Shown: piece after piece, positions 21,384 to 62,098 of the stretch
Position numbering within the stretch: position 1 is the first letter of the stretch
Layout: each line of letters opens with the position of its first letter
Source: Ligustrum vulgare
Lineage: Eukaryota > Streptophyta > Magnoliopsida > Lamiales > Oleaceae
NCBI GenBank assembly: GCA_963555705.1
Contig: OY743190.1
Coordinates: forward strand, 13,057,501 to 13,121,500
Length of the DNA stretch: 64,000 bases
Direction: 5' to 3'
Translations under genes and position numbers: made by a program
The notes under the pieces: model-generated
Databases searched by the model: none
What the model was told of the DNA's origin: nothing
Seen by the model: only the letters and a program-made list of their open reading frames with translations

Positions 21384-23397
21384 TGTGACGACCCGAATTC
21401 TCGACCATTCGAGTGCCACTAAAAGTGACTCATATCATATTATCGAGACTTAAATAGTAATGTAAAATTATTCAAAAGAATAATTAGAATCCCATAATTT
21501 TTATTGTGAATAAAAATAGAACATAATTTTCTTACATAAAGTTCAACATAATTATCTCATCAATCTTAACCACTTTTGCCACTTCCATGTTGACCGCCTC
21601 GAACCTTCAATTATCTGAAAATGGTAAATATCGTGGAGTGAGATTTATAAAATCCCAGTAAGTATACCAAGCATAAATTTTCTTTTGAAAGCATATGGAT
21701 CATTTTCATCATAACATAGGATATGATCGAAATACTCATAAACATAGGGAGACACAAGAATTTTACCGAACTTAAATGGCAAGAATTCTTATGTGTAGCG
21801 CTACTAAACTCCGGTCCCCTTAGCATAATCATAAACATATCATATGGAACCCATAACAATCTTGTGAGATTGATTTCATAGCAATGATCCAAACATTTTC
21901 ATAAAAACATAAGATATACTTACTTGTCATAAAAACATACTTACTTTTCATAAAAACATAAGGTGTATTTACCTTTCATAAAAACATACTTACTTTTCAT
22001 AAAAACATAAGATATACTTACTTGTCATAAAAACATACTTACTTTTCATAAAAACATAAGGTGTATTTACCTTTCATAAAAACATACTTACTTTTCATAA
22101 AAACATAAGGTGTATTTACCTTTCATAAAAACATACTTACTTTTCATAAAAACATAAGATATACTTACTTGTCATAAAAACATACTTACTTTTCATAAAA
22201 ACATAAGGTATACTTACTTGTCATAAAAACATACTTACTTTTCATAAAAACATAAGGTGTATTTACCTTTCATAAAAACATACTTACTTTTCATAAAAAC
22301 ATTAGATATACTTACCTTTTAAAAGATTAAAATGAAGTGCAGTAGTAAATGGACCAAAACTTTCTTGACCACCTTGAATTTCTCTTACTTGTGGATTTTG
22401 TCAAGAGATTGGAAATAAGTGTATATGTGTAGAGTTGTGTGTAAAAGAGATGGGTTTAAATAGATGTATAAAGTTGGCATATTGTAAACATAATCATTCA
22501 ATTCTATTAATTTTAACACATCATTTTCTTAAAGTAAAGCACCATTCATATACTTTTCCATATTTATACAAATAATATGCTCTTCATGATTATATATAAT
22601 GGAGTCTTATCAATCATTCATATACTTTTCCATATTTATACAAATATTATGCTCTTCATGATTATATATAATGGAGTCTTATCAATCATTCATATACTTT
22701 TCCATATTTATACAAATATTATGCTCTTCATGATTACATATAATGGAGTCTTATCAACCATTCATATACTTTTCCATATTTATACAAATATTATGCTCTT
22801 CATGATTACATATAATGGAGTATATAATTCATTCATATACTTTTCCATATTTATACAAATATTATACTCTTCATGATTACATATAATGGAGTATATAATT
22901 CATTCATATACTTTTCCATATTTATACAAATATTATGCTCTTCATGATTACATATAATGGAGTATATCAACCATTCATATACTTTTCCATATTTATACAA
23001 ATATTATGCTCTTCATGATTATATATAATGGAGTATATAATTCATTCATATACTTTTCCATATTTATTAAATTAAGATTCTCATAATTATTATATATAAT
23101 GGAACCTCTCATGCTTGCATATATTTTCTTAATTTCAATAATAAAAATAATTTTTGTATAAATAAATATTGGGATAACATTGAATTAAGTACTTGGACTT
23201 AATATACTTTAAATCAAGAGAATGGAGATATTTTTAGAATTTCGGAATTTAATTTAAAATCGAACGATCTCGATTATTTCTTGACTTGGCTATACGAATA
23301 CGTCGCGGCGTTAACTTAATAAAAATAGGTGAAATAGTAGCGACACGATTTTCTATTAAAATAATTATTAATCGCGTAAAAATTCTTGGTCGCTACA
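21384..23397 (-). repeat. LOG element A 3' LTR with two internal arrays
   Basis: 2014 bp. Contains a 20-30 bp minisatellite (about 21898-22315, units such as TTTCATAAAAACATACTTAC) and an array of eight 72-bp units (about 22545-23070, each with ACTTTTCCATATTTATACAA). Differs from its partner mainly by two fewer 72-bp units. Ends GGTCGCTACA at 23397. Confidence 0.9.
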
Positions 23398-23401
23398 AAC
23401 T

Positions 23402-23413
23402 TACCCCCTTAAA
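23402..23413 (-). promoter_or_regulatory. Polypurine tract of LOG element A
   Basis: Minus-strand TTAAGGGGGTAA next to the 3' LTR, preceded by TTTCGAGGACGAAATTATTT. The same 35 bases are nearly identical in the Tekay element at about 8031-8065. The remaining DNA up to 24270 has no gene. Confidence 0.8.
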
Positions 23414-24272
23414 ATAATTTCGTCCTCGAAATTAAACTTACTTGATCTTATGATTTCTGAACACTTAATCAGAATCTCTTCTCTTCTTCTCTTAGGTAGT
23501 ATCATTGCTACTATATTTAACCCACTGGACTTTGACTAAATGCATATCTTTGTTTTTCTTAAAAACATGGACTTTTCTATCAATAATAGACATATGTGTC
23601 TACTCATAAATTCTGACTCAAAAGGAAAATTCTCAATCGTATGTGATATTTCATCATGTCTTGTAGTACTCATGTAACCTGTCACTTATCATCGTATCAT
23701 GTGACCTCAAATATTCGTATTAATATCTCTAAAATTTCAATAAATCTTTACTAACATATCATACCATAATAATTAGTCATTTCTTCTTATCACCAAATAT
23801 CCCAAAGTAAATAAAATGGTTACCTGAATATTCCCTATGTAATATATCCAAACATATTATTCATCAATCAACATAATATCATCAGTTTATCTTTTCCCAT
23901 ATTTGTAACCAAAACGTTCTGCAAAATTCAAATAAATAATTAGCTCCCAAACTAAGATTCTTTACTTAAATATCACCACATTTCCTGCAAAGTATTTCTT
24001 TCACTTGTATATACGTATGAATTCTGATTCAATACGGTCCTTATTTCTCTTTCACGTATTCCCGTATTATTTCTATACCTTGATTATTATATCAGAATAT
24101 CAGTACCCAAAATTCAAGAAAAATATTTTATATCTCAAATCTTATCATCAAATCTTCCTTTATCGATAAAATTTAACAGTGCATTACTTCTTGTCTCCTC
24201 TTTTCATTAAAATAATCCTGCGCTTTCTTGCTGGACACAACATCACGCGGATTCACTCAGATCCTTTACGCT

Positions 24273-24281
24273 TTTAAATAG
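24273..24281 (+). promoter_or_regulatory. TATA-like box TTTAAATAG before the Cys4 gene
   Basis: TTTAAATAG lies 34 bp before the ATG at 24315, so the leader would be very short. The same nonamer lies 75 bp before the LOG ATG (25127-25135) and is kept at both genes in copies B and C. Confidence 0.5.
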
Positions 24282-24314
24282 TTCATGCTGGGAAGAGGTT
24301 AGAATCATCAAACA

Positions 24315-24860
24315 ATGGATATCATCCTTTCTAACATTCGCAAGTATTATTCCAATCTTCCTATGAATGATCTGAGAAAGATCTATAGAATAAGGCTCGA
24401 AAGATTGAGGTTGCTGATGGCTCATGATATTCCAGAAGATGTTCGCTGGTTGATCGAAGCAAAAGTTCGACTATCTGGTGAATTACCTATGACCTTTCCA
24501 AAACATATGCCTGGTTTAGGCAAAAGCACGTTTGCAAAGAAACGAAGAGCAAAAAGACTGGGTGGTTGCTACAAATGTGCTCGTTGGAACTGTAATACTC
24601 GTTGCAAATCATTAGGATATTCTTCTACTAATCGAGATGATAAAATCGAATTCATAAAGGGTGGACTGAGTAAGGAGTCTTTGGATGATATTCGATTGAC
24701 TCTCGAGACGCACCCAAGTGGGTATGTGCAACGTGAACTCCTTTCCTTATATGCTCAATTTAACGAGGACAAAAATCGTTATAGTCTCAAAAATATAATC
24801 GCAAAAGATCCTGTTTGCCAGTCTGTTTTACAAAATGAGGTTGTGGCAATTCAGCATTGA
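24315..24860 (+). CDS. Basic Cys4 protein resembling plant-virus nucleic-acid-binding proteins (element A)
   Basis: 181 residues, intronless, antisense to the element. Residues 1-60 are predicted helical and basic (DLRKIYRIRLERLRLLMAH). Residues 70-82 form a strongly basic stretch (KSTFAKKRRAKRL), followed at once by Cys85-X2-Cys88-X4-Cys93-X3-Cys97, then FIKGGLSKESLDDI and a C-terminal helix-rich part. A basic KKRRA patch, then LG, then a Cys cluster, is the layout of the cysteine-rich nucleic-acid-binding proteins of carlaviruses and vitiviruses; I infer a distant relationship and could not test it. The N- and C-terminal parts match nothing I know. The last nine residues differ from copies B and C because the 3' end was altered. 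Separated by about 350 bp from the LOG gene on the same strand. Confidence 0.7.
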   Translation: MDIILSNIRKYYSNLPMNDLRKIYRIRLERLRLLMAHDIPEDVRWLIEAKVRLSGELPMTFPKHMPGLGKSTFAKKRRAKRLGGCYKCARWNCNTRCKSLGYSSTNRDDKIEFIKGGLSKESLDDIRLTLETHPSGYVQRELLSLYAQFNEDKNRYSLKNIIAKDPVCQSVLQNEVVAIQH

Positions 24861-24904
24861 TATAAGGTAAATCTTTGATACGCATTTAAAAATATTCTTC
24901 TGTT

Positions 24905-25020
24905 TCCTTTCACAAGTTTTGATAAAGCTGGTGAAAATATATTTTCCTTTCTCGAGTTTTTATAAATATTGAAAAAATATATTTTCCTTTCTCGAGGTTT
25001 GATAAAGCTGGAAAATAAAT
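24905..25020 (+). repeat. Short direct repeats between the two genes of element A
   Basis: Two to three partial copies of a unit with ATATTTTCCTTTCTCGAG followed by GTTTTGATAAAGCTGG. Equivalent repeats are at about 40400-40510 and 58318-58420. They lie 100-220 bp before the LOG TATA-like box, so they could be upstream promoter elements; function unknown. Confidence 0.6.
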
Positions 25021-25126
25021 CACCGAAAGGTAATATCTTTGATAAAATAGTCAAAAGTTGGCCGATTTTGTCAAAAGTAAATCTTTACTTTTTCAGAATC
25101 AATCAAAAACAGTAAATTTTTCCGGC

Positions 25127-25135
25127 TTTAAATAG
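25127..25135 (+). promoter_or_regulatory. TATA-like box TTTAAATAG before the LOG gene
   Basis: TTTAAATAG within GGCTTTAAATAGCCAAAC, 75 bp before the start codon, which would leave a leader of about 45 nt. Conserved in copies B (about 40618) and C (about 58213, minus strand). Confidence 0.5.
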
Positions 25136-25209
25136 CCAAACATATTTCATAGTTCAGGTATCCCAAAATCACATCTTCTTCGTAAGTTTTCCCTTCTATA
25201 CTATCAAAG

Positions 25210-25863
25210 ATGGAAGCACCAAAACTTCGACAGATCAAAACTATTTGTGTATTTTGTGGATCAAAAGTGGGGAAAGGCTTCGGTTATCTAGAAGCGGCCG
25301 TAGATCTTGGAAAGAAACTGGGGGAAAAAGGTATCACTCTTGTATATGGGGGTGGTAGCAGTGGTCTAATGGGTTGTGTTTCCCAATCTGCTCTTGCAGA
25401 GAAATCAAAAGTAATCGGTGTCATACCTGTCCCTTTGGTAGATGTTGCAGGAAAAACACGAGGGCATGAAGTTCAAACCTTATCCATCCATGAACGTATA
25501 ACTTGTATGCTATATGGTTCTGATGCCTTTATAGCCCTGCCCGGAGGTTTTGGTACCTTAGAAGAAATCTTTAACATTACCTCGTGGGCTCAACTAGATC
25601 TCCATACTAAGCCTATTGGGCTTCTGAATGTTAACAATTTCTTTGATGGCTTGTTAACCTTTCTTGATTATGCTGTGGAACAGGGATTCATCTCTCCATT
25701 TTCCAGAAGGCTCCTTATTTCTGCTCCTACTATTGATGAACTACTGGATAAGCTGCAGTCATATATCTCAATACAAGATCCAGCAGGGGTTAAGATAGAT
25801 TGGTCGCAAGGAAGGGGAATCAAGCGAAAATGGAGTCCGGTTAATGTAAACTTAACTTTATGA
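25210..25863 (+). CDS. LOG: LOG-type cytokinin riboside 5'-monophosphate phosphoribohydrolase (element A)
   Basis: 217 residues, the usual length of plant LOG proteins, in one exon. LOG enzymes release active cytokinin bases (isopentenyladenine, zeatin) from their riboside monophosphates in one step, in cytosol and nucleus. Seen here: Rossmann-like start ICVFCGSKVGKG (12-23), YGGGSSGLMG (46-55), HERITCM (94-100), the signature PGGFGTLEE (111-119), and SWAQLDLHTKPIGLLN (125-140). The signature and the conserved Arg96 and Glu residues are kept, but the lysine after that arginine in typical LOGs (HxRKxxM) is isoleucine here. Plant LOG genes normally have several introns; their absence points to capture through mRNA. 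The gene is antisense to the retrotransposon. Only Gly25Ser and Ile69Met separate it from copy C. Confidence 0.93.
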   Translation: MEAPKLRQIKTICVFCGSKVGKGFGYLEAAVDLGKKLGEKGITLVYGGGSSGLMGCVSQSALAEKSKVIGVIPVPLVDVAGKTRGHEVQTLSIHERITCMLYGSDAFIALPGGFGTLEEIFNITSWAQLDLHTKPIGLLNVNNFFDGLLTFLDYAVEQGFISPFSRRLLISAPTIDELLDKLQSYISIQDPAGVKIDWSQGRGIKRKWSPVNVNLTL

Positions 25864-25868
25864 ATCTT

Positions 25869-26112
25869 AGAATAGGTGGGGGTAGAGTACGGAGTATTCT
25901 TACTCTCGAGACACCCCTCTAATTTCCTAGGATTTCCTTAATGTTTAAATCTTGTGTGTACCTCAAAGGTTCCAGGTGGTAGATTACGGAGTATTCTTAC
26001 TCTCGAAACACACCTCTTTGAAGGTTTCTTTATTTCCTCAAAAGGTCAGAGGTGGTAGGATACGGCTACTCCGGAAACACATCTCTCAATTTGAGGAATT
26101 TCCCATGTTGCT
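25869..26112 (+). repeat. Three repeated stem-loop segments after the LOG gene (element A)
   Basis: Three successive segments share GGTGG...GTAGA(G/T)TACGGAGTATTC and end in CACCCCTC, CACACCTC or CACATCTC, so their ends can pair (for example AGGTG with CACCT). The first starts 6 nt after the LOG stop. All three are kept in copies B (about 41360-41605) and C (about 57225-57470, minus). They could be 3'-UTR structures or remnants of a tandem array. Confidence 0.6.
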
Positions 26113-27022
26113 TTCTTTTGCTTTTGCGTGTTTCATGTATTTCTTTCCAGTGTGACTCTTGTGTGTTCTCCTTACGAGAAAATAATAATATCTCTGTTAT
26201 CATCTACTAAATCTCGTTTGTGATGTAAATGAATTTGCATGTCTAACCTCAATTCTCTTAGTGATTGCATACCATACTATGCTCTTAATTCCAAACGATA
26301 AAATTCTAGGCAGAGTTTCCTTTGAAATTTGGACTTATTCAAACCGTAAGCATACTTCATAACTCACAATAATAAATAATTCCACATTTGATCACAACGA
26401 TCTAAAAATTGACCACAATTTCATCAAACTTCAATATCATAAAAAAATATTCCAGAAAATCAATTCATAATTCCTCAACATAGAAATTTCAAATCATAGT
26501 CGTCAATATCACAATATCACTTCCTTCAATACCTTAATTGGCTCAAAAGATTACTCATACTTATATTTATAAGTCATAAATCATATTCCCAAAATTTAAT
26601 CACAAGGCCAAAGTTCATAATAAATTTCTCTTCAATATAGAGGCATAATTCACTTACTCAACATAATAGCCATTACTTAATTCCCAATAACCAAATCTTT
26701 AAATCTCTAACTTCATAATGCTTCTCATAAAAGTCTCATTAAAATCATATCACTTATAATCTTAACATCTCATAAAACTTCATAAAATTGGCTCGCTATT
26801 TCTCATTAAATCTAAATGATAGATAATCTCAACATATTTCTAATCATTTCTGTTGACTTCTTATACTTAGTGCCATGTCTAAAATCAATTATGCAAAGTC
26901 CATTTAAGGTTCATCATTTCTAAACTCGAGGACAACAATTATTTTGAAAATCATTCTTAAGTCATATTATTCCCATTATGCTCAACACCCGTTCTCTTTC
27001 TTTCTTTCCGAATTTTTTTCAG
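26113..27022. other. Non-coding internal region of element A
   Basis: AT-rich; no gene or motif seen. Includes a stretch (about 26520-26660) lacking in copies B and C. AATAATAAT near 26183 could belong to a LOG polyadenylation region. Confidence 0.5.
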
Positions 27023-27215
27023 AATTGAAACTTGAAGAGTGGTACCAATAATCATCCACAGTTTTTCCTTGCTTTTAAGCAAAGGTAGTGATAAAGGGAT
27101 AAATTATTGAACCGAAAATTGAAACTTGAAGAGGAAGTACTAATAACCATCCACAGTTTTTCCCTTGTTTTTACACAAAGGTAGTGATAAAGGGATAAAT
27201 TATTGTACAAATTCA
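27023..27215. repeat. 94-bp tandem repeat, two copies in element A
   Basis: Unit starts AATTGAAACTTGAAGAG and ends GGGATAAATTATTGAACCGA, with a small palindrome GCTTTTAAGC in the middle. Two copies here, three in B (42315-42593), four in C (56137-56515). Confidence 0.85.
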
Positions 27216-28097
27216 TTATTAATTTTGTTTGTTTAATATATTATTCCATATATTTTTTGGCAAAAGTTACGAACCAACTTATTTTTCTAATTTAGTCAGT
27301 CTTACTAAGCTTAATATGAACCAAAATTCATATCAATATCCTCTATGTCTCATGATTCTACATAAAAAGGAATAAATTAAAATTCAGGCTTCTATCAATT
27401 CATATCATACTCAACATGTATATTTCACTTAAAGATTCATAACATATGAAGATTTCATACTTAACATGTCTTAATAAAATCGTAAATGACTTGCAAAGCA
27501 TATAACATACCTGGTTCGAGGAGTCAATACGTGGAGAGTGACATAGTAGAGTGATGAGTTAAAATATTTCATATAATCTTATTTTCCTTTAATCAACAAT
27601 AATTTAATGTGGTTGTATCCAAATCAACATTTTCTTGAATCATAATTCCTAATTAATCACAGTCTTCAAAACAAATCCAATATCGATATAGTAATTATCT
27701 CCCCATCAATAATTAATAACTTAACCCAAATAAAATTTATCGTCAAATCTTATTTTTCCTTTAGTCCCCGAACTTCTAGAAATTTATCAAAGACATCAAT
27801 ATAAACATCATATCACTAACTAATTATATTCCATAAAATTTTCAGGACATTACAAACTCCCTTGCTTAAAATGAATTTTGTCCTTGAAATTCGCACATCA
27901 AATTTCATCATGCTTTTCAAAATCATAACCATACTTGACATGTGAAAATTCAACTTTTTTTTTATAATGAATAGTGATTTCGTTCACTGTTCATCATGAA
28001 TAGCACGTCGTTTTACTGATCACGTGAATAGTGATTTTTTTTTTTTTTAAACAAATAAAATTTCAAAAATCTACAGAATCGTTTTTAAAACTCTTTT

Positions 28098-28108
28098 CTC
28101 TGATACCA
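28098..28108 (-). promoter_or_regulatory. Primer-binding site of LOG element A
   Basis: Minus-strand TGGTATCAGAG two bases inside the 5' LTR, an initiator tRNA-Met site. It defines element sense as minus and therefore the two genes as antisense. The following leader AGAGTTTTAAAAACGATTCT matches that of the Tekay element. Confidence 0.85.
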
Positions 28109-28110
28109 AC

Positions 28111-30266
28111 TGTGACGACCCGAATTCTCGACCATTCGAGTGCCACTAAAAGTGACTCATATCATATTATCGAGACTTAAATAGTAATGTAAAATTATTC
28201 AAAAGAATAATTAGAATCCCATAATTTTTATTGTGAATAAAAATAGAACATAATTTTCTTACATAAAGTTCAACATAATTATCTCATCAATCTTAACCAC
28301 TTTTGCCACTTCCATGTTGACCGCCTCGAACCTTCAATTATCTGAAAATGGTAAATATCGTGGAGTGAGATTTATAAAATCCCAGTAAGTATACCAAGCA
28401 TAAATTTTCTTTTGAAAGCATATGGATCATTTTCATCATAACATAGGATATGATCGAAATACTCATAAACATAGGGAGACACAAGAATTTTACCGAACTT
28501 AAATGGCAAGAATTCTTATGTGTAGCGCTACTAAACTCCGGTCCCCTTAGCATAATCATAAACATATCATATGGAACCCATAACAATCTTGTGAGATTGA
28601 TTTCATAGCAATGATCCAAACATTTTCATAAAAACATAAGATATACTTACTTGTCATAAAAACATACTTACTTTTCATAAAAACATAAGGTGTATTTACC
28701 TTTCATAAAAACATACTTACTTTTCATAAAAACATAAGATATACTTAATTGTCATAAAAACATACTTACTTTTCATAAAAACATAAGGTGTATTTACCTT
28801 TCATAAAAACATACTTACTTTTCATAAAAACATAAGGTGTATTTACCTTTCATAAAAACATACTTACTTTTCATAAAAACATAAGATATACTTACTTGTC
28901 ATAAAAACATACTTACTTTTCATAAAAACATAAGGTATACTTACTTGTCATAAAAACATACTTACTTTTCATAAAAACATAAGGTGTATTTACCTTTCAT
29001 AAAAACATACTTACTTTTCATAAAAACATTAGATATATTTACCTTTTAAAAGATTAAAATGAAGTGTAGTAGTAAATGGACCAAAACTTTCTTGACCACC
29101 TTGAATTTCTCTTACTTGTGGATTTTGTCAAGAGATTGGAAATAAGTGTATATGTGTAGAGTTGTGTGTAAAAGAGATGGGTTTAAATAGATGTATAAAG
29201 TTGGCATATTGTAAACATAATCATTCAATTCTATTAATTTTAACACATCCTTTTCTTAAAGTAAAGCACCATTCATATACTTTTCCATATTTATACAAAT
29301 AATATGCTCTTCATGATTATATATAATGGAGTCTTATCAATCATTCATATACTTTTCCATATTTATACAAATATTATGCTCTTCATGATTATATATAATG
29401 GAGTCTTATCAATCATTCATATACTTTTCCATATTTATACAAATATTATGCTCTTCATGATTACATATAATGGAGTCTTATCAACCATTCATATACTTTT
29501 CCATATTTATACAAATATTATGCTCTTCATGATTACATATAATGGAGTATATAATTCATTCATATACTTTTCCATATTTATACAAATATTATACTCTTCA
29601 TGATTACATATAATGGAGTATATAATTCATTCATATACTTTTCCATATTTATACAAATATTATGCTCTTCATGATTACATATAATGGAGTATATCAACCA
29701 TTCATATACTTTTCCATATTTATACAAATATTATACTCTTCATGATTACATATAATGGAGTATATAATTCATTCATATACTTTTCCATATTTATACAAAT
29801 ATTATGCTCTTCATGATTACATATAATGGAGTATATCAACCATTCATATACTTTTCCATATTTATACAAATATTATGCTCTTCATGATTATATATAATGG
29901 AGTATATAATTCATTCATATACTTTTCCATATTTATTAAATTAAGATTCTCATAATTATTATATATAATGGAACCTCTCATGCTTGCATATATTTTCTTA
30001 ATTTCAATAATAAAAATAATTTTTGTATAAATAAATATTGGGATAACATTGAATTAAGTACTTGGACTTAATATACTTTAAATCAAGAGAATGGAGATAT
30101 TTTTAGAATTTCGGAATTTAATTTAAAATCGAACGATCTCGATTATTTCTTGACTTGGCTATACGAATACGTCGCGGCGTTAACTTAATAAAAATAGGTG
30201 AAATAGTAGCGACACGATTTTCTATTAAAATAATTATTAATCGCTTAAAAACTCTTGGTCGCTACA
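28111..30266 (-). repeat. LOG element A 5' LTR
   Basis: 2156 bp; same structure as its partner but with ten 72-bp units (about 29270-29940) instead of eight. Outside the arrays the two LTRs are nearly identical by eye. Confidence 0.93.
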
Positions 30267-31627
30267 TTGGTTGCCCGCGACGTCAATGTACCGTTTCTCC
30301 TAATTAATTTTCATTCATTAACAAAATATGATTTTTAGTGAAAGACCACATTTTACACTCTTAAATGAGGTCGAGATTATCATGTGACTCATAATATAAC
30401 AAACGCATTTAACACCACGTATAATATCATATTCGAAGTAATACATTAAGTTCAAGGAAGATTTTGAAATCTTACTTATCCATTTCACAAATCAAAGTTA
30501 AGCATTTCTTATTCAAAAAGAAAAAATGATCTTAAACTAAAATTTATAACGTTGAACATAAATTCAATTTAAACTAACTTGTTCCTAAAAGGTTAAACTT
30601 TACTCTCCTACACCATTATCCCAACATTCCAAAAATCACATGTTCGTTTAAATAGTCATATGCATATTCATGATCATATATACATACACTCACACCTCAA
30701 ATTTAATATTATAGCACACAAATTAATTCAAAAATTTCATGAATATATATCTATGCCCACAAAATCCAAACTTATACATATATATACACGCATCTATACA
30801 TACATAATAATATATACATTCATATACATCACTACTCATTCACATAACATCATAGATCCCCAATTTCATGGTTAAACTCGAATTTTACACAAAATTAAAA
30901 TCTGCAGTTAACTGTAAAAACTGAATTTATGCATATAAAGTGTATACATACATTCTTTACATAGAATTTATACATATATACATGTGTGTATCGAATTATG
31001 GGCGTGTGTGCGGGCGAAATCGCGTGGAACCGTGTGCGTGTGTGTGTGGTCTCGGGTGTGTGTGCGTGTGTCGTGAAGAGAAAAGGGGAAAAGGGGCTTA
31101 CCGCCGGTGGTTGGGTCGTGGTCGGCGACGGGTTAGAGAGAGAGTGACCGAGAGCGAGAGGTGAGTCGAGGGAGAGGGAGGCGGAAACGAGGGAGAGAGA
31201 GAGCGCGATGGAGAAGAGAGAGACCGAGAGTGAGCGTAAGTGAGGAGTAGGTTAGGGTTAAGTTTTTAACTTTTGGTAAATTGCAATTCAGTCCCTCTAC
31301 TCTCATAAATTAGTAATTTAGGCTCAAAACTTTCAAATGAAATTCCAAAGTGTCACCAAATTTTTCCCAACTTCAATATAACACAATAAAAATAGAAATT
31401 AGCATGCCTAGGCAATAAATTTAATTAATCACATAAAATTGCACGTAAACTGTTAAAATAACAATTTATAAACTTTTAATTGGTACATTGATCGAAACGG
31501 CATCCAATCCTTCCACTGCAAAATAATTCAATTAAAACCATAATATTAGTTAAATCATTTATAATGATATTAACATAAACTTTACGCGACAATCAAGAAA
31601 GCATGTAAATCGAAATGCGGTATTACA
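30267..31627 (-). mobile_element. 5' LTR of the Tekay element, segment 2 (U3/R side)
   Basis: Resumes at TTGGTTGCCCGCGACG after element A and ends GCGGTATTACA. Contains the segment missing from the other LTR (about 30746-31437), including a GT-rich tract near 31030-31070 and a GA-rich tract (31120-31250). In minus sense this holds CT- and CA-rich pyrimidine stretches, possibly a promoter/leader. Confidence 0.9.
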
Positions 31628-36638: not shown

Positions 36639-37170
36639 TGTAACACCCCAAGTTTAAGAGTCTAAAACCTAGGCGTGTTAACTTCCATTCACATTAAATG
36701 CGGAATTAAATCGTTTACACAATTAAAATTTTCATTTATCTATTGTAAAATTTTAATGAAACTTCGGTAGAGTCTCCTCTATAAATTGGACATAACCAAC
36801 CTGTAGAGGGACATCAAAACCATTTTAAAAATTTAAAACATCAATCACATCTCAATCACATTCGTAATGGCCAAAACCAATTCATTCATTCCCCAACTCC
36901 TCAAGCATAAGATTTTCCAAAAATATCAACAGACATTGACAAATGAAATAAGAAGTAATTTAATCTCTAATACGTCATCCATACTTAATTAAAACCAACT
37001 TCAACCAAACAATTATCAATAATAATGAATTAAGGAATAAATTTAAATAATAACTTGAATAAATTTAACTTTATTAAATAATGGCGACAGCGGGTACTGT
37101 CTGAGTCAGTCGCCGAGTGCTCCCCTCTGATCATCTAATTTTCATCACCTGAAATGTTGGGGAGGGATTG
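36639..37170 (-). mobile_element. Solo Tekay-type LTR, segment 1
   Basis: Starts TGTAACACCCC after TSD AGAAT (36634-36638). Diverged relative of 20104-20640. Interrupted at GGAGGGATTG by LOG element B, exactly where the intact relatives read GGAGGGATTGGGGTGAGC. Confidence 0.9.
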
Positions 37171-38881
37171 TATGACGACCCGAATTCTCGACCATTCGAG
37201 TGCCACTAAAAGTGACTCATATCATATTATCGAGACTTAAATAGAAATGTAAAATTATTCAAAAGAATAATTAGAATCCCATAATTTTATTTGTGAATAA
37301 AAATAGAACATAATTTTCTTACATAAAGTTCAACATAATTATCTCATCAATCTTAACCACTTTTGCCACTTCCATGTTGACCGCCTCGAACCTTCAATTA
37401 TCTGAAAATGGTAAATATCGTGGAGTGAGATTTATAAAATCCCAGTAAGTATACCAAGCATAAATTTTCTTTTGAAAGCATATGGATCATTTTCATCATA
37501 ACATAGGATAGGATCGAAATACTCATAAACATAGGGAGACACAAGAATTTTACCGAACTTAAATGGCAAGAATTCTTATGTGTAGCGCTACTAAACTCCG
37601 GTCCCCTTAGCATAATCATAAACATATCATATGGAACCCATAACAATCTTGTGAGATTGATTTCATAGCAATGATCCAAACATTTTCATAAAAACATAAG
37701 ATATACTTACTTTTCATAAAAACATAAGGTGTATTTACCTTTCATAAAAACATACTTACTTTTCATAAAAACATAAGATATACTTACTTGTCATAAAAAC
37801 ATACTTACTTTTCATAAAAACATAAGGTGTATTTACCTTTCATAAAAACATACTTACTTTTCATAAAAACATAAGATATACTTACTTGTCATAAAAACAT
37901 ACTTACTTTTCATAAAAACATAAGGTGTATTTACCTTTCATAAAAACATACTTACTTTTCATAAAAACATAAGATATACTTACTTGTCATAAAAACATAC
38001 TTACTTTTCATAAAAACATAAGGTGTATTTACCTTTCATAAAAACATACTTACTTTTCATAAAAACATAAGATATACTTACCTTTTAAAAGATTAAAATG
38101 AAGTGTAGTAGTAAATGGACCAAAACTTTCTTGACCACCTTGAATTTCTCTTACTTGTGGATTTTGTCAAGAGATTGGAAATAAGTGTATATGTGTAGAG
38201 TTGTGTGTAAAAGAGATGGGTTTAAATAGATGTATAAAGTTGGCATATTGTAAACATAATCATTCAATTCTATTAATTTTAACACATCCTTTTCTTAAAG
38301 TAAAGCACCATTCATATACTTTTCCATATTTATACAAATATTATGCTCTTCATGATTACATATAATGGAGTCTTATCAACCATTCATATACTTTTCCATA
38401 TTTATACAAATATTATGCTCTTCATGATTACATATAATGGAATCTTATCAACCATTCATATACTTTTCCATATTTATACAAATATTATGCTCTTCATGAT
38501 TACATATAATGGAGTCTATAATTCATTCATATACTTTTCCATATTTATACAAATATTAAGATTCTCATAATTATTATATATAATGGAACCTCTCATGCTT
38601 GCATATATTTTCTTAATTTCAATAATAAAAATAATTTTTGTATAAATAAATATTGGGATAACATTGAATTAAGTACTTGGACTTAATATACTTTAAATCA
38701 AGAGAATGGAGATATTTTTAGAAATTCGGAATTTAATTTAAAATCGAACGATCTCGATTATTTCTTGACTTGGATATACGAATACGTCGTGGCGTTAACT
38801 TAATAAAAATGGGTGAAATAGTAGCGACACGATTTTCTATTAAAATAATTATTAATCGCGTAAAAATTCTTGGTCGCTACA
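37171..38881 (-). repeat. LOG element B 3' LTR
   Basis: 1711 bp, the shortest of the six, with four 72-bp units (38310-38560) and the minisatellite at about 37680-38085. Polypurine tract TTAAGGGGGTAA (minus) follows at 38885-38896. Confidence 0.9.
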
Positions 38882-51125: not shown

Positions 51126-51133
51126 TTCAAATG

Positions 51134-53060: not shown

Positions 53061-53064
53061 AAAC

Positions 53065-53450
53065 ATGAATGAAAGTGATGGTGATGTTAACCCCCGTAGG
53101 GGCAGAAGTGGCCAACATAGAGAGGGCGAGGTTCCTCAAGGACTTCATGAAAACGCCAATGAGGAAGTGACACAACCTAACCCACCTCGCCGGCACCGTA
53201 ATCGCCGCATGATGCGAGATATGACATGCATGGCGGCCCAAATGTTAGAAATGCAGAAGCAGCAGATAGAACAGACTGCTGCAATGAATGCCTTTATGGC
53301 CAGAGGGTATGTTATGAATGAACCCATGATGTCTCAGCAATACCCACTGTCACATTATTCACCATCCGAGGCGGCCACTGCCTCGTATTATTACCAAGAT
53401 CCACAGGCATATGCCGAGGTGGAATCTGAGCCCATCTACGAGGAAGACCC
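53065..53450 (+). pseudogene. Tat-like gag, N-terminal part
   Basis: ATG at 53065, MNESDGDVNPRRGRSG, a low-complexity basic and glutamine-rich region (MLEMQKQQIEQTAAM) and an acidic end (EPIYEEDP). Interrupted by LOG element C after GAGGAAGACCC; the TSD GACCC is at 53446-53450 and 62099-62103, and the frame continues from there. Confidence 0.8.
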
Positions 53451-55401
53451 TGTAGCGACCAAGAATTTTTACGCGATTAATAATTATTTTAATAGAAAAT
53501 CGTGTCGCTACTATTTCACCCATTTTTATTAAGTTAACGCCACGACGTATTCGTATAGCCAAGTCAAGAAATAATCGAGATCGTTCGATTTTAAATTAAA
53601 TTCCGAATTTCTAAAAATATCTCCATTCTCTTGATTTAAAGTATATTAAGTCCAAGTACTTAATTCAATGTTATCCCAATATTTATTTATACAAAAATTA
53701 TTTTTATTATTGAAATTAAGAAAATATATGCAAGCATGAGAGGTTCCATTATATATAATAATTATGAGAATCTTAATTTAATAAATATGGAAAAGTATAT
53801 GAATGGTTGATAAGACTCCATTATATGTAATCATGAAGAGCATAATATTTGTATAAATATGGAAAAGTATATGAATGGTTGATAAGACTCCATTATATGT
53901 AATCATGAAGAGCATAATATTTGTATAAATATGGAAAAGTATATGAATGGTTGATAAGATTCCATTATATGTAATCATGAAGAGCATAATATTTGTATAA
54001 ATATGGAAAAGTATATGAATGGTTGATAAGACTCCATTATATGTAATCATGAAGAGCATAATATTTGTATAAATATGGAAAAGTATATGAATGGTTGATA
54101 AGACTCCATTATATGTAATCATGAAGAGCATAATATTTGTATAAATATGGAAAAGTATATGAATGGTGCTTTACTTTAAGAAAAGGATGTGTTAAAATTA
54201 ATAGAATTGAATGATTATGTTTACAATATGCCAACTTTATACATCTATTTAAACCCATCTCTTTTACACACAACTCTACACATATACACTTATTTCCAAT
54301 CTCTTGACAAAATCCACAAGTAAGAGAAATTCAAGGTGGTCAAGAAAGTTTTGGTCCATTTACTACTACACTTCATTTTAATCTTTTAAAAGGTAAGTAT
54401 ATCTTATGTTTTTATGAAAAGTAAATATGTTTTTATGAAAGGTAAATACACCTTATGTTTTTATGAAAAGTAAGTATGTTTTTATGACAAGTAAGTATAT
54501 CTTATGTTTTTATGAAAAGTAAGTATGTTTTTATGAAAGGTAAATACACCTTATGTTTTTATGAAAAGTAAGTATGTTTTTATGACAAGTAAGTATATCT
54601 TATGTTTTTATGAAAAGTAAGTATGTTTTTATGAAAGGTAAATACACCTTATGTTTTTATGAAAAGTAAGTATGTTTTTATGACAAGTAAGTATATCTTA
54701 TGTTTTTATGAAAAGTAAGTATGTTTTTATGAAAGGTAAATACACCTTATGTTTTTATGAAAAGTAAGTATGTTTTTATGACAAGTAAGTATATCTTATG
54801 TTTTTATGAAAAGTAAGTATGTTTTTATGAAAGGTAAATACACCTTATGTTTTTATGAAAAGTAAGTATATCTTATGTTTTTATGAAAATGTTTGGATCA
54901 TTGCTATGAAATCAATCTCACAAGATTGTTATGGGTTCCATATGATATGTTTATGATTATGCTAAGGGGACCGGAGTTTATTAGCGCTACACATAAGAAT
55001 TCTTGCCATTTAAGTTCGGTAAAATTCTTGTGTCTCCCTATGTTTATGAGTATTTCGATCCTATCCTATGTTATGATGAAAATGATCCATATGCTTTCAA
55101 AAGAAAATTTATGCTTGGTATACTTACTGGGATTTTATAAATCTCACTCCACGATATTTACCATTTTCAGATAATTGAAGGTTCGAGGCGGTCAACATGG
55201 AAGTGGCAAAAGTGGTTAAGATTGATGAGATAATTATGTTGAACTTTATGTAAGAAAATTATGTTCTATTTTTATTCACAAATAAAATTATGGGATTCTA
55301 ATTATTCTTTTGAATAATTTTACATTTCTATTTAAGTCTCGATAATATGATATGAGTCACTTTTAGTGGCACTCGAATGGTCGAGAATTCGGGTCGTCAC
55401 A
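53451..55401 (+). repeat. LOG element C 5' LTR
   Basis: 1951 bp with six 72-bp units (53785-54165) then the minisatellite (about 54390-54885). In element sense the minisatellite units read GAAAAGTAAGTATG and GACAAGTAAGTATATC. A TATA-like TATTTAAACC at 54245 precedes the array. Confidence 0.92.
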
Positions 55402-55458
55402 GTTGGTATCAAAGACAAGAGTTTTAAAAACGATTCTGTAGATTTTTGAAATTTTATT

Positions 55459-55495
<37 letters not shown>

Positions 55496-56136
55496 ATTTT
55501 CACATGTCAAGTATGGTTATGATTTTGAAAAGTATGATGAAATTTGATGTGCGAATTTCAAGGACAAAATTCATTTTAAGCAAGGGAGTTTGTAATGTTC
55601 TGAAGATTTTATGGAATATAATTAGTTAGTGATATGATGTTTATATTGATGTCTTTGATAAATTTCTAGAAGTTCGGGGACTAAAGGAAAATAAGATTTG
55701 ACGATAAAATTTTATTTGGGTTAATTAGGCCCAATCTTATGTAAAGATGCGAAATGATTAATAATAATTTTTTTTTAAAAAATATTTTAACTCATCACTC
55801 TACTATGTCACTCTCCACGTATTGACTCCTCGAACCAGGTATGTTATATGCTTTGCAAGTCATTTACGATTTTATTAAGACATGTTAAGTATGAAATATT
55901 CATATGTTATGAATCTTTAAGTGAAATATACATGTTGAGTATGATATGAATTGATAGAAGCCTAAATTTTAATTTATTCATTTTAATGTAGAATCATGAG
56001 ACATAGAGGATATTGATATGAATTTTGGTTCATATTAAGCTTAGTAAGATTGACTCAATTAGAAATTAAGTTGGGTTGTAACTTTGGCCCAAAATATATG
56101 GAATAATATATTAAACAAACAAAATTGATAATGAAT

Positions 56137-56515
56137 TGTACAATAATTTATCCCTTTATCACTACCTTTGTGTAAAAACAAGGGAAAAACTGTGGATGGT
56201 TATTAGTACTTCCTCTTCAAGTTTCAATTTTCGGTTCAATAATTTATCCCTTTATCACTACCTTTGCTTAAAAGTAAGGAAAAACTGTGGATGATTATTG
56301 GTACCACTCTTCAAGTTTCAATTTTCGGTTCAATAATTTATCCCTTTATCACTACCTTTGCTTAAAAGCAAGGAAAAACTGTGGATGATTATTGGTACCA
56401 CTCTTCAAGTTTCAATTTTCGGTTCAATAATTTATCCCTTTATCACTACCTTTGCTTAAAAGCAAGGAAAAACTGTGGATGATTATTGGTACCACTCTTC
56501 AAGTTTCAATTTTGA
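56137..56515. repeat. 94-bp tandem repeat, four copies in element C
   Basis: Reverse complement of the arrays in A and B; three typical copies plus the variant copy (56137-56236). Followed by a 20-nt A-run. The flanking internal DNA (55402-57224) has no gene. Confidence 0.85.
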
Positions 56516-57478
56516 AAAAAAAAAAAAAAAAAAAAATATGATTTACGAATGATTTTCAAAATAATCTTTGTCGTAAAGTTTAGAAATGATGAGCCCTAAA
56601 TGGACTTTGCATAATTGATTTTAGACATGGCACTAAGTATGAGAAGTCAACAGAAAGGACTAGATAATATTTTCGAATTATTCATCGTTTAGATTAAACG
56701 AGAAATAGAAAGTCAGTTTTATGAAGTTATGATGAGATGTTGAGATTATAAGTGATATGATTTTATTGAGATTTTTATGAGAAGAATTATGAAGTTGGAG
56801 ATTTAAAGTTTAGGCTCTTAATTATTGAGAAATAAGGACTTGATATGGTGATATTAGAAATTATGATTTGAAATTTCTATGTTGAGGAATTATGAATTGA
56901 TTTTCTGGAATATTTATGATGATATTGAAGTTTGATGAAATTGTGATCAAATGTACAATTAGTTATTATTGTGAGTTATGAAGTATGCTTACGATTTGGA
57001 TAAGTCCAAATTTCAAAGGAAAACTCTGCCTAGAATTTTATCGTTTGGAGTTAAGAGCATAGTATGGTATGCAATCACTAAGAGAATTGAAGTTAGACAT
57101 ACAAGTTCATTTACATCACAAACGAGATTTAGTAGATGATAACAGAGATATTATTATTTTCTCATAAGGAGAACACACAAGAGTCACCTTAGAAAGGAAA
57201 TACATGAAAACACGCAAAAGCAAAAGAAAGCAACATGGGAAATTCCTCAAATTGAGAGATGTGTTTCCGGAGTAGCCGTATCCTACCACCTCTGACCTTT
57301 TGAGGAAATAAAGAAACCTTCAAAAAGGTGTGTTTCGAGAGTAAGAATACTCCGTAATCTACCACCTGGAACCTTTGAGGTACACACAAGATTTAAACAT
57401 TAAGGAAAATCCTAGGAAATTAGAGGGGTGTCTCGAGAGTAAGAATACTCCGTACTCTACCCCCACCTATTCTAAGAT

Positions 57479-58132
57479 TCATAAAGTTAAGTTTACATTA
57501 ACCGGACTCCATTTTCGCTTGATTCCCCTTCCTTGCGACCAATCTATCTTAACCCCTGCTGGATCTTGTATTGAGATATATGACTGCAGTTTATCCAGTA
57601 GTTCATCAATAGTAGGAGCAGAAATAAGGAGTCTTCTGGAAAATGGAGAGATGAATCCCTGTTCCACAGCATAATCAAGAAAGGTTAACAAGCCATCAAA
57701 GAAATTGTTAACATTCAGAAGCCCAATAGGCTTAGTATGGAGATCTAGTTGAGCCCACGAGGTAATGTTAAAGATTTCTTCTAAGGTACCAAAACCTCCG
57801 GGCAGGGCTATAAAGGCATCAGAACCATATAGCATACAAGTTATGCGTTCATGGATGGATAAGGTTTGAACTTCATGCCCTCGTGTTTTTCCTGCAACAT
57901 CTACCAAAGGGACAGGTATGACCCCCATTACTTTTGATTTCTCTGCAAGAGCAGATTGGGAAACACAACCCATTAGACCACTGCTACCACCCCCATACAC
58001 AAGAGTGATACCTTTTTCCCCCAGTTTCTTTCCAAGATCTACGGCCGCTTCTAGATAACTGAAGCCTTTCCCCACTTTTGATCCACAAAATACACAAATA
58101 GTTTTGATCTGTCGAAGTTTTGGTGCTTCCAT
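57479..58132 (-). CDS. LOG: LOG-type cytokinin riboside 5'-monophosphate phosphoribohydrolase (element C)
   Basis: Intact 217-residue frame, ATG at 58132. Same motifs as the copy at 25210 (YGGGSSGLMG, HERITCM, PGGFGTLEE) and the same Lys-to-Ile change at 97. Residues 25 (Ser) and 69 (Met) differ from A. The TTTAAATAG box and the stem-loop segments after the stop are kept. C and B share Ser25, so the stop in B arose on a C-like sequence. Confidence 0.93.
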   Translation of the reverse strand: MEAPKLRQIKTICVFCGSKVGKGFSYLEAAVDLGKKLGEKGITLVYGGGSSGLMGCVSQSALAEKSKVMGVIPVPLVDVAGKTRGHEVQTLSIHERITCMLYGSDAFIALPGGFGTLEEIFNITSWAQLDLHTKPIGLLNVNNFFDGLLTFLDYAVEQGFISPFSRRLLISAPTIDELLDKLQSYISIQDPAGVKIDWSQGRGIKRKWSPVNVNLTL

Positions 58133-58469
58133 CTTTGATAGTATAGAAGAGAAAACTTACGAAGAAGATGTGATTTTGGGATGCCTGAACTATGAAATAT
58201 GTTTGGCTATTTAAAGCCGGAAAAACTTACTGTTTTTCATTGATTCTGAAAAAGTAAAGATTTACTTTTGATAAAATCGGCCAACTTTTGACTGTTTTAC
58301 CAAAGATATCACCTTTCGGTGATTTATTTCCAGCTTTATCAAACCTCGAGAAAGGAAAATATATTTATTTCCAGCTTTATCAAAACTCGAGAAAGGAAAA
58401 TATATTTTATTTCCAAAACGCGTGAAAGAAAACAGCAAAATATTTTAAATGTGTATCAAGAGATTTACC

Positions 58470-59021
58470 TTATATCATTGATGAACTGCCAGAAGCCTCA
58501 TTTTGTAAAACAGACTGGCAAACAGGATCTTTTGCTATTATATTTTGGAGACTATAACGATTTTTGTCCCCGTTAAACTGAGCGTATAAGGAGAAAAGTT
58601 CACGTTGCACATAACCACTTGGGTGCGTCTCAAGAGTCAGTCGAATATCATCCAAAGACTCCTTACTCAGTCCACCCTTTATGAATTTGATTTTATCATC
58701 CCGATTAGTAGAAGAATATCCTACTGTTTTGCAACGAGTATCACAGTTCCAACGAGCACATTTGTAGCAACCATTCAGCCTTTTTGCTCTTCGTTTCTTT
58801 GCGAAGGTGCTTTTGCCTAAACCAGGCATGTGCTTTGGAAATGTCATAGGTAATTCACCAGATAGTCGAACCTTTGCTTCGATCAACCAGCGAACATCTT
58901 CTGAAACACCATGAGCCATCAGCAACCTCAATCTTTCGAGTCTTATTCGATAAATTTTCCTCAGATCATTCATTGGAAGACTGGAATAATACTTGCGAAT
59001 GTTTGTAAGAATGATATCCAT
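58470..59021 (-). CDS. Basic Cys4 protein (element C)
   Basis: Intact 183-residue frame, ATG at 59021, upstream of and co-oriented with the LOG gene (about 340 bp apart). Cys85, Cys88, Cys93 and Cys97 and the KKRRAKRL patch are conserved; between A and B/C roughly ten residues differ over the alignable part, none in the Cys cluster. Confidence 0.7.
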   Translation of the reverse strand: MDIILTNIRKYYSSLPMNDLRKIYRIRLERLRLLMAHGVSEDVRWLIEAKVRLSGELPMTFPKHMPGLGKSTFAKKRRAKRLNGCYKCARWNCDTRCKTVGYSSTNRDDKIKFIKGGLSKESLDDIRLTLETHPSGYVQRELFSLYAQFNGDKNRYSLQNIIAKDPVCQSVLQNEASGSSSMI

Positions 59022-59951
59022 GTTTTGATGGATCTAACCTCTTCCCAGCATGAACTATTTAAAAGCATTAAGGATCGGAGGAAATCCGCGTGATATTGAT
59101 TCCAGCAAGAAAGCGCGGAATAGAATAATGGAAAAGAGGGAACAAGAGTTATGCGCCGTTTACTTTCTTGATAAAAGGAAGATTTGATGATGACGGGATT
59201 TGAGATATGGAATATTTTCTTGGATTTTGGGTACTGATATTTTGATATAATAATCAAGGTATAGAAATAATACGGGGATACGTGAAAGTGAAATAAGGAC
59301 TGTATTGAATCAGGATTAATAAGTTTGTGCAAGTGAAAGGAATACCTTACGGGAAATGTTATGATATTTGAGTTAAGAATTTTAATTATTTGGGAGATAT
59401 TTGTTTATTGAATTTTGCAGAAATTTTGGGTTACAAATATTGGAAAGATAAACTGATGATTATGTTGATATGTGAATAACATGTTTGGGTATATTACATA
59501 GAGAATATTCAGGTAATCGTTTTAATTATTTTGGGATATTTGGTGATAAGAAGAAATGACAAATTATTATGGTATGATATGTTAGTAAAGATTTATTGAA
59601 ATTTTAGAGATATTAATACGAATATTTGAGGTTACATGATACGATGATAAGTGACAGGTTACATGAGTACTACAAGATATGATGAAATATCACATACGAT
59701 TGGGAATTTTCATTTTGATTCAGAAGAATTTATGAGTAGACATATGTCTATTATTGATAGAAAAGTTCATGTCTTAAGAAAACAAATTGATGCATTTAGT
59801 CAAAGTCCAGTGGGTTAAATATGGTTGGGTTAAATATGGTAGCGATGATGCTACATAAGAAGAAGAAGAAGAGATTCTGATTAAGTGTTCAGAAATCATA
59901 AGATCAAGTAAGTTTAATTTCGAGGACGAAATTATTTTAAGGGGGTAAGTT

Positions 59952-62098
59952 TGTAGCGACCAAGAATTTTTACGCGATTAATAATTATTTTAATAGAAAA
60001 TCGTGTCGCTACTATTTCACCCATTTTTATTAAGTTAACGCCACGACGTATTCGTATAGCCAAGTCAAGAAATAATCGAGATCGTTCGATTTTAAATTAA
60101 ATTCCGAATTTCTAAAAATATCTCCATTCTCTTGATTTAAAGTATATTAAGTCCAAGTACTTAATTCAATGTTATCCCAATATTTATTTATACAAAAATT
60201 ATTTTTATTATTGAAATTAAGAAAATATATGCAAGCATGAGAGGTTCCATTATATATAATAATTATGAGAATCTTAATTTAATAAATATGGAAAAGTATA
60301 TGAATGGTTGATAAGACTCCATTATATGTAATCATGAAGAGCATAATATTTGTATAAATATGGAAAAGTATATGAATGGTTGATAAGACTCCATTATATG
60401 TAATCATGAAGAGCATAATATTTGTATAAATATGGAAAAGTATATGAATGGTTGATAAGATTCCATTATATGTAATCATGAAGAGCATAATATTTGTATA
60501 AATATGGAAAAGTATATGAATGGTTGATAAGACTCCATTATATGTAATCATGAAGAGCATAATATTTGTATAAATATGGAAAAGTATATGAATGGTTGAT
60601 AAGACTCCATTATATGTAATCATGAAGAGCATAATATTTGTATAAATATGGAAAAGTATATGAATGGTGCTTTACTTTAAGAAAAGGATGTGTTAAAATT
60701 AATAGAATTGAATGATTATGTTTACAATATGCCAACTTTATACATCTATTTAAACCCATCTCTTTTACACACAACTCTACACATATACACTTATTTCCAA
60801 TCTCTTGACAAAATCCACAAGTAAGAGAAATTCAAGGTGGTCAAGAAAGTTTTGGTCCATTTACTACTACACTTCATTTTAATCTTTTAAAAGGTAAGTA
60901 TATCTTATGTTTTTATGAAAAGTAAATATGTTTTTATGAAAGGTAAATACACCTTATGTTTTTATGAAAAGTAAGTATGTTTTTATGACAAGTAAGTATA
61001 TCTTATGTTTTTATGAAAAGTAAGTATGTTTTTATGAAAGGTAAATACACCTTATGTTTTTATGAAAAGTAAGTATGTTTTTATGACAAGTAAGTATATC
61101 TTATGTTTTTATGAAAAGTAAGTATGTTTTTATGAAAGGTAAATATACCTTATGTTTTTATGAAAAGTAAGTATGTTTTTATGACAAGTAAGTATATCTT
61201 ATGTTTTTATGAAAAGTAAGTATGTTTTTATGAAAGGTAAATACACCTTATGTTTTTATGAAAAGTAAGTATGTTTTTATGACAAGTAAGTATATCTTAT
61301 GTTTTTATGAAAAGTAAGTATGTTTTTATGAAAGGTAAATACACCTTATGTTTTTATGAAAAGTAAGTATGTTTTTATGACAAGTAAGTATATCTTATGT
61401 TTTTATGAAAAGTAAGTATGTTTTTATGAAAGGTAAATACACCTTATGTTTTTATGAAAAGTAAGTATGTTTTTATGACAAGTAAGTATATCTTATGTTT
61501 TTATGAAAAGTAAGTATGTTTTTATGAAAGGTAAATACACCTTATGTTTTTATGAAAAGTAAGTATATCTTATGTTTTTATGAAAATGTTTGGATCATTG
61601 CTATGAAATCAATCTCAAAAGATTGTTATGGGTTCCATATGATATGTTTATGATTATGCTAAGGGGACCGGAGTTTAGTAGCGCTACACATAAGAATTCT
61701 TGCCATTTAAGTTCGGTAAAATTCTTGTGTCTCCCTATGTTTATGAGTATTTCGATCCTATCCTATGTTATGATGAAAATGATCCATATGCTTTCAAAAG
61801 AAAATTTATGCTTGGTATACTTACTGGGATTTTATAAATCTCACTCCACGATATTTACCATTTTCAGATAATTGAAGGTTCGAGGCGGTCAACATGGAAG
61901 TGGCAAAAGTGGTTAAGATTGATGAGATAATTATGTTGAACTTTATGTAAGAAAATTATGTTCTATTTTTATTCACAAATAAAATTATGGGATTCTAATT
62001 ATTCTTTTGAATAATTTTACATTTCTATTTAAGTCTCGATAATATGATATGAGTCACTTTTAGTGGCACTCGAATGGTCGAGAATTCGGGTCGTCACA
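59952..62098 (+). repeat. LOG element C 3' LTR
   Basis: 2147 bp; six 72-bp units (60285-60665), and a minisatellite longer than in the 5' LTR (about 60895-61585), which accounts for the 196-bp size difference. Confidence 0.92.

Follow-up and report, generated by a model that had tools for sequence, protein, structure and literature searches.

A 64,000-nucleotide stretch of the Ligustrum vulgare genome (assembly GCA_963555705.1, contig OY743190.1, positions 13,057,501 to 13,121,500 of the forward strand; hereafter the window) contains three complete long terminal repeat (LTR) retrotransposons, each enclosing a gene for a cysteine-rich protein (CRP) with four conserved cysteines (Cys4) and a gene of the LONELY GUY (LOG) type. 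These elements probably represent a young non-autonomous Ty3/gypsy-type family that is mobilised by a helper and carries, antisense to itself, an RNA-virus-type CRP and a LOG of a separate lineage as an accessory module. The initial annotation of this DNA had proposed a non-autonomous LTR family carrying a LOG-type gene, a proposal borne out by the lack of a gag-pol match and by the LOG profile match; it had missed the RNA-virus character of the Cys4 protein, the antisense position of the genes and an integrase-linked relative of the CRP. The elements are located as follows (positions in the window, strand in the retroelement sense):

21384-30266, minus strand: element 1, 3' LTR 21384-23397, 5' LTR 28111-30266, target-site duplication (TSD) TTGGT at 21379-21383 and 30267-30271.
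37171-45204, minus strand: element 2, 3' LTR 37171-38881, 5' LTR 43324-45204, TSD GATTG at 37166-37170 and 45205-45209.
53451-62098, plus strand: element 3, 5' LTR 53451-55401, 3' LTR 59952-62098, TSD GACCC at 53446-53450 and 62099-62103.

Comparison of the window with itself and a read-out of the boundaries revealed paired LTRs, a 5-bp TSD, a primer-binding site (PBS) and a polypurine tract (PPT) in all three copies, as the initial annotation had claimed, and this anatomy can be regarded as practically certain. The PBS reads TGGTATCAGAGA, which we take to be the complement of the end of the initiator methionine tRNA, with TGGTATCAAAGA in its place in copy 3, and the PPT reads TTTTAAGGGGG. The PBS and the polypurine tract AAGGGGG are read on the minus strand in copies 1 and 2 and on the plus strand in copy 3. 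With gaps left out, the LTR pairs of elements 1, 2 and 3 are 99.70, 99.88 and 99.90% identical, with 6/2014, 2/1710 and 2/1951 aligned bases differing, and all three elements are therefore young. At 7059-7659 (no strand assigned), the other LTR of a larger, outer element contains the empty-site allele of element 1, which matches the joined flanks at 99.67%. For copy 2, a related empty site lies at 6322-6907 (85.8%, 592/600 bases), and no empty allele of copy 3 was found within the window by the same joined-flank search. Mobility as a unit, at unrelated sites, is thus documented by the empty alleles of copies 1 and 2 and by the differing TSDs. Since TSDs, flanks and empty sites are distinct, the copies are independent insertions, and a segmental duplication, which the initial annotation had named as one of two findings that would overturn its reading, is ruled out.

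Several further features of the LTRs and leaders were observed. In element 2, ..GTCATA takes the place of ..GTCACA at the end of both LTRs in the sense direction, so the usual TG...CA termini are not kept, and its TSD is clean nonetheless. Tandem arrays of 49/98 bp and 71/72 bp lie within the LTRs, and in the pairs listed below their copy number is not the same in the 5' and the 3' LTR of one element; outside these unequal arrays the pairs are 99.7-99.9% identical, and the repeat number may change during reverse transcription. The untranslated leader holds a tandem repeat of 94-96 bp, with 1.9 copies in element 1, 2.9 in element 2 and 3.9 in element 3.

22543-23103 and 29270-29972: LTR tandem-array pair of unequal copy number.
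37703-38085 and 43856-44336: LTR tandem-array pair of unequal copy number.
38307-38558 and 44558-44881: LTR tandem-array pair of unequal copy number.
54389-54869 and 60890-61566: LTR tandem-array pair of unequal copy number.
27023-27205, 42313-42591 and 56141-56513: leader tandem repeat of elements 1, 2 and 3.

The claim that each element holds a LOG and a Cys4 gene stands as far as their presence is concerned, both genes being located in all three copies; in copy 2, codon 26 of the LOG is a nonsense codon that breaks the frame, and two of the three LOG open reading frames (ORFs) are therefore intact:

24315-24860, plus strand: CRP (Cys4) ORF of element 1, 181 amino acids (aa), antisense to the element, Viral_NABP 30 bits, Carla_C4 27.2 bits.
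39812-40363, plus strand: CRP ORF of element 2, 183 aa.
58470-59021, minus strand: CRP ORF of element 3, 183 aa, antisense to the element.
25210-25863, plus strand: LOG ORF of element 1, intact, 217 aa, with PGGFGTLEE and the tail VNVNLTL.
40701-41354, plus strand: LOG gene of element 2, with the nonsense codon.
57479-58132, minus strand: LOG ORF of element 3, intact, 217 aa.

Relative to the orientation given by the PBS and PPT, both genes are antisense to the element in all three copies, and this placement is reinforced because homology to the outer gag-pol element supports the orientation independently. A position of the genes in sense with the element is ruled out, as both lines of evidence give the opposite strand.

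Neither gag nor pol was found in the elements, in agreement with the initial annotation. A tblastn search (E<=1) of the three elements with five gag, protease and pol proteins encoded elsewhere in the window yielded no match; as a control, the three gag-containing queries each recovered one or more further gags from the window, and the pol and protease queries found only themselves. Stop-to-stop scans (at least 50 aa in copies 1 and 3, at least 120 aa in copy 2) revealed no ORF above 109 aa in the internal regions of copies 1 and 3 besides the CRP, the LOG and a 144-aa ORF of copy 3, which has no Pfam match and recurs in copy 2. A hidden gag or pol was accordingly rejected, and the elements do not qualify as autonomous Ty3/gypsy elements. 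Their PBS-side and PPT-side sequences are shared with a resident outer Ty3/gypsy element, as would be found in a non-autonomous derivative of that family:

6074-30745, minus strand: outer Ty3/gypsy element, candidate helper, limits approximate and taken from the LTR match.
18748-19821, 18000-18710 and 8064-10802, minus strand: its gag, protease and reverse transcriptase-RNaseH-integrase ORFs.
28052-28109, minus strand: PBS and leader block of element 1, matching outer element 20044-20100, 91% over 58 columns, E 1e-15.
23400-23441, minus strand: PPT-side block of element 1, matching outer element 8031-8074, 91%, E 1e-8.
55403-55459, plus strand: PBS and leader block of element 3, matching the outer gag-pol element, 89%, E 4e-14.
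59908-59949, plus strand: PPT-side block of element 3, matching the outer gag-pol element, 91%, E 1e-8.

The shared blocks comprise 57-58 columns on the PBS side (89-91%) and 44 columns on the PPT side (91%), and they match the outer element in the same sense as its minus-strand gag, protease and pol ORFs. Beyond them, the only matches outside the three elements are short ones around A-runs. Mobilisation in trans is classically pictured in this way, with a non-autonomous element having nothing but its replication signals in common with a resident gag-pol family, and on these matches the outer element is the likely helper of the three elements. The outer element is itself split twice, by a nested element at 10789-18034 and by element 1, which sits in the right LTR.

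On its profile matches, the CRP belongs with the cysteine-rich nucleic-acid-binding proteins of RNA viruses of the carlavirus type. All three window CRPs, as betaflexivirid-type proteins would, score above the curated cut-offs of Pfam Viral_NABP (PF05515) and Carla_C4 (PF01623), with which they share a homologous core consisting of a four-cysteine motif and an adjoining basic stretch. The viral proteins measure 77-144 aa (ten entries, one of them a fragment), in contrast to 181-183 aa in the window, and the window CRPs differ from them further in being encoded by retrotransposons. In a search of 5.8 billion proteins, 343 relatives were retrieved at a lax limit of E<=10, the best 120 of which all have E<=7e-50; named hosts among these 120 are Orobanche, Populus, Xanthoceras and Acer, which we take to be placed in both rosids and asterids. 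An alignment of 79 CRPs (2 window copies and 77 relatives chosen by hand from the best 120 of 343) showed matches (E<=1e-3) to Viral_NABP in 69 and to Carla_C4 in 66, and no other Pfam family among the 79. A fold search with a CRP model gave 34 matches, none with E<=0.001; the first 13 weak matches include 10 proteins that we take to be betaflexivirid, 8 named as nucleic-acid-binding, RNA-binding or silencing-suppressor proteins, with low TM-scores and a ranking that may reflect sequence as much as shape. The best PDB homologue of the CRP has an E of 0.36, an NCBIfam scan returned nothing on the CRP, and three scans of IMG/VR, a collection that may hold few such viruses, returned no CRP or LOG relative. 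According to passages of PMC12172455, carlavirus CRPs are reported to suppress silencing, and p12 of chrysanthemum virus B is a transcription factor causing hyperplasia.

The CRP also appears under selection. Between copies 1 and 3 (first 175 codons), 24/113 synonymous and 14/412 nonsynonymous sites have changed, with 0.250 synonymous changes per site (dS) against 0.035 nonsynonymous ones (dN), a dN/dS of about 0.14 and a Fisher value of 8e-9; purifying selection on the CRP between these copies is thereby shown. In the same pair, the LOG has changed at 5/156 synonymous and 2/495 nonsynonymous sites (Fisher 0.01), and copies 2 and 3 are too similar to inform the test. Identity along copy 1 is uneven, and this copy therefore looks mosaic.

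The LOG gene clearly belongs to the phosphoribohydrolase family by profile and by the PGGxGTxxE motif. It matches Lysine_decarbox (Pfam) with E about 1e-33 and Arabidopsis At2g37210 with E 1.6e-57, keeps PGGFGTLEE and reaches 163 bits on TIGR00730 (cut-off 96); the cut-off of 300 of the equivalog NF058542 is reached neither by the window LOG (109) nor by the Arabidopsis LOG control P0241 (132). Canonical LOG genes have introns, and the frame of the window LOG is uninterrupted across 217 codons in copies 1 and 3. The most identical of its listed relatives reaches 93% (P0121), the next 63% (P0124) and the Arabidopsis LOG3 type 48.5%. In a tree of 68 rows (40 of 120 and 24 of 120 listed relatives picked by hand, the window LOG, an Orobanche minor piece, one LOG8 chain and a bacterial outgroup), 42 window-type LOGs are split from 25 canonical LOGs with a support of 99/98; four rows with unusual structure or length had been excluded from a larger tree beforehand. 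On this tree the window-type lineage is separate from the canonical plant LOGs sampled, namely LOG1, LOG3 and LOG8, so that the gene is not an orthologue of that set and a recent copy of a LOG1/3/8-type gene is ruled out. Location in a transposon was observed for the window LOG copies only; the clade, the multicopy rows and fused gene models in Orobanche suggest that other relatives may reside in transposons as well.

The C-terminal tail adds a further distinguishing feature. LxLxL, the EAR type of co-repressor-binding motif, occurs in the last 7 residues of 92/120 listed window-type relatives versus 0/120 listed canonical LOGs (32/44 versus 0/5 clusters at 80% identity), the canonical control being one LOG3-like group far narrower than the window-type set; in shuffled tails it occurs in 13%. 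The window LOG itself ends in VNVNLTL, with V at the first position, and therefore only approximates LxLxL; a strict EAR motif was rejected for it.

The pairing of the two genes, and the company of the CRP, can be followed outside the window. In Orobanche minor and O. gracilis, CRP and LOG domains are fused in one gene model. Among 179 pattern-matched stretches from a prokaryote genome collection, one encodes a CRP relative, contig DAIEQH010000041.1 (hereafter L001), which is filed as a Candidatus Nomurabacteria metagenome-assembled genome and, judging from its gene content, is probably plant DNA binned with a bacterium. The interval 104-2347 contains both an integrase ORF and a CRP. The ORF has 496 aa and the domains Integrase_H2C2 and rve; the CRP, above the Viral_NABP cut-off, begins some 200 bp downstream of it on the same strand, and a GGGGGG purine tract comes next. 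L001, the window and Orobanche together indicate that the CRP can travel in elements that have pol and in the sense orientation, and that LOG may or may not accompany it. The initial annotation had held that gag-pol in full-length relatives would speak against it; such a link exists in the wider Cys4 family, through the integrase ORF of L001, and was not found for this element family, of which the three window copies were covered. Contigs of the same size bearing CRP and LOG, respectively, numbered 4 among 57 CRP and 25 LOG contigs (0.46 expected, P 0.002) in hand-picked rows of about 1.5-12 kb, with shorter contigs and those above 20 kb left out, and are no more than suggestive of pairing.

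The mechanism that seems most likely may be outlined on this basis. The family would have kept only LTRs, PBS and PPT for its own cycle, the antisense two-gene module standing in place of gag-pol, and proteins of the resident outer gag-pol family would copy the element. The antisense genes might be expressed from a promoter of their own, by analogy with the antisense gene of Grande, for which passages of PMC7264820 report one. The CRP could weaken RNA silencing of the element and/or reprogram host transcription, and the LOG could raise active cytokinin where the element is transcribed, which might favour a dividing state and germ-line transmission. Expression, protein activities, benefit to the element and use of the helper are all presumed in this scheme. 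A function of CRP and LOG as accessories of the element has slightly less than even chances, and the exact roles suggested for the two proteins are more doubtful. In a wider and rather unlikely version, LTR elements of rosids and asterids would share a portable kit, composed of a silencing suppressor or transcription factor derived from RNA viruses and a dedicated cytokinin-activating lineage of LOGs with a TOPLESS-recruiting tail. Such a kit would move between Ty3/gypsy lineages and orientations and act in the manner of paired virulence factors, damping silencing and sustaining cell division and thereby bringing new copies into the germ line.

Several points limit the case for an accessory module of this kind. 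The zinc-finger spacing C-x2-C-x4-C-x3-C was established within the listed CRP relatives (106 of 120), and the fold model of the CRP is of low confidence (pLDDT 70, pTM 0.35). The L001 CRP scores 19.8 on Carla_C4, just under the cut-off of 20.9, and no LOG match (E<=0.01) was found within the 3.3 kb of that contig, so the CRP-LOG pair is not obligatory. The LOG block at about 25200-26100 is 98-100% identical between copies, compared with 82-98% in other 200-column windows (and 57% in one short, poorly aligned window); as the block is far more alike at synonymous sites too, recombination is indicated and the dN/dS of LOG is weak evidence. The broken LOG of copy 2 implies either that an element does not need its own LOG in cis or that the break came later.

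The broken gene is also what would be expected of passive cargo, a host LOG and a virus-like gene transduced once and amplified by element movement without use to the element; capture of host genes by LTR elements is known (passages of PMC7264820). This reading is unlikely given the significant synonymous excess in the CRP between copies 1 and 3, the many and close CRP relatives in hosts presumably spread over rosids and asterids, and the association of the CRP with a Ty3/gypsy integrase ORF in L001 and with LOG in the Orobanche models. Transcription of CRP and LOG might alternatively matter through its RNA, which would form double-stranded RNA with the genomic RNA and regulate the element. 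The antisense position in all three copies would suit such a role, and antisense transcripts and double-stranded RNA are discussed for plant LTR elements in parts of PMC7264820; the open frames, the amino-acid conservation and the sense position of the CRP relative to the integrase ORF in L001 make it quite improbable.

The two genes could instead have been a nuclear pair serving the host and picked up by elements now and then. CRP- and LOG-type gene models do occur on plant chromosomes, where annotation does not separate host from element genes. Window-type LOGs nevertheless form one clade apart from the sampled canonical LOGs, and the many different rows from Reevesia and from Populus suggest elements in multiple copies, so that repeated capture has only a slim chance of being correct. 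An RNA virus with an acquired plant LOG might also have supplied both genes as one piece, in keeping with the RNA-virus-type CRP and the uninterrupted LOG ORF. We know of no RNA virus that carries a plant LOG and a CRP; the negative scans of IMG/VR, in which few such viruses may be held, and the CRP of L001 with no LOG within 3.3 kb tell against this origin, which is very improbable. The helper-mobilised family with an antisense accessory module thus remains the preferred reading, and it raises the possibility that jumping genes in some cases bring with them the means to manipulate host cells.

Other features of the window complete the picture. Elements 1 and 2 are both inserted (at 21384 and 37171) inside LTRs, about 86% alike, of one wider gag-pol family, which also shares the replication signals of the elements. 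The nested LTR element at 10789-18034 has a PBS-like TGGCGCCGTTGCCGGGG and a gag-protease ORF at 12185-14737. Directly right of element 3, a gag-like ORF (62660-63328, Retrotrans_gag, 60 bits) adjoins, and element 3 was therefore probably inserted in another retroelement. An ORF at 362-1102 with a Glyco_transf_8 domain (184 bits) is probably part of a host gene.

A 2020 review (PMC7264820) describes the antisense accessory ORFs of plant LTR elements as resembling neither other proteins nor viruses. Both antisense ORFs reported here come from families with known biochemistry, and their function is therefore directly testable. The questions raised are whether a transposon uses a silencing suppressor of the RNA-virus type and whether cytokinin is altered where the element is active; if the proposed reading is true, such elements would also give genes of RNA viruses and of hormone metabolism a way to spread through plant genomes.

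Compared with known systems, the LOG domain in plant LTR elements and antisense accessory ORFs are already known, and the CRP, its pairing with LOG and the LxLxL tail are apparently new, as no report of these three was found in titles or abstract beginnings among the matches listed from the open-licence PMC literature. The opinion of the initial annotation that no family of this kind had been described has to be given up, since Ty3/gypsy elements with a LOG-type (YgdH) domain have already been published for Citrus and Populus (PMC9289625, in part, citing Steinbauerova et al. 2011, Genetica 139:1543). Those elements likewise have a LOG-family domain inside plant LTR retrotransposons, and Populus is also a source of CRP relatives listed here. 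The 2011 study reportedly dealt with two Athila-like elements similar to LOGL4. In the passages concerned, only the YgdH/LOG domain is named and the consensuses were found via reverse transcriptase (PMC9289625), and the word "carlavirus" is absent from the main text of that article; the window elements have no gag-pol and carry their genes antisense. Plant LONELY GUY of the At2g37210/LOG3 type is of the same family as the window LOG, with PGGxGTxxE and the identity given above, whereas the window LOG falls in a separate clade, lies as an uninterrupted ORF in a transposon and has relatives with a C-terminal LxLxL that the 120 listed canonical proteins do not have.

Gained accessory domains proposed to counter host control have been described, in the parts of these articles concerned, for orchid Ty3/gypsy elements with an AlkB demethylase of N6-methyladenosine (m6A) (PMC9289625) and for insect long interspersed nuclear elements (LINEs) with a virus-derived helicase (PMC5563155, PMC6338049); these are other domains with no hormone enzyme among them, and the LINE helicase belongs to the polyprotein of the element itself. 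A comparable arrangement is offered by the aORF-3R ORFs of Grande, RIRE2, Retand and PvRetro13, which lie toward the 3' LTR in antisense orientation and are stated, in passages of PMC7264820, to have no clear similarity to database proteins or viruses. In the present data, all three copies have antisense ORFs and lack gag-pol, and L001 is the only case in which a CRP follows a Ty3/gypsy integrase ORF. Grande, RIRE2, Retand and PvRetro13 carry gag-pol (PMC7264820, in part), whereas the Ligustrum elements have none, and both of their antisense ORFs have clear homologues.

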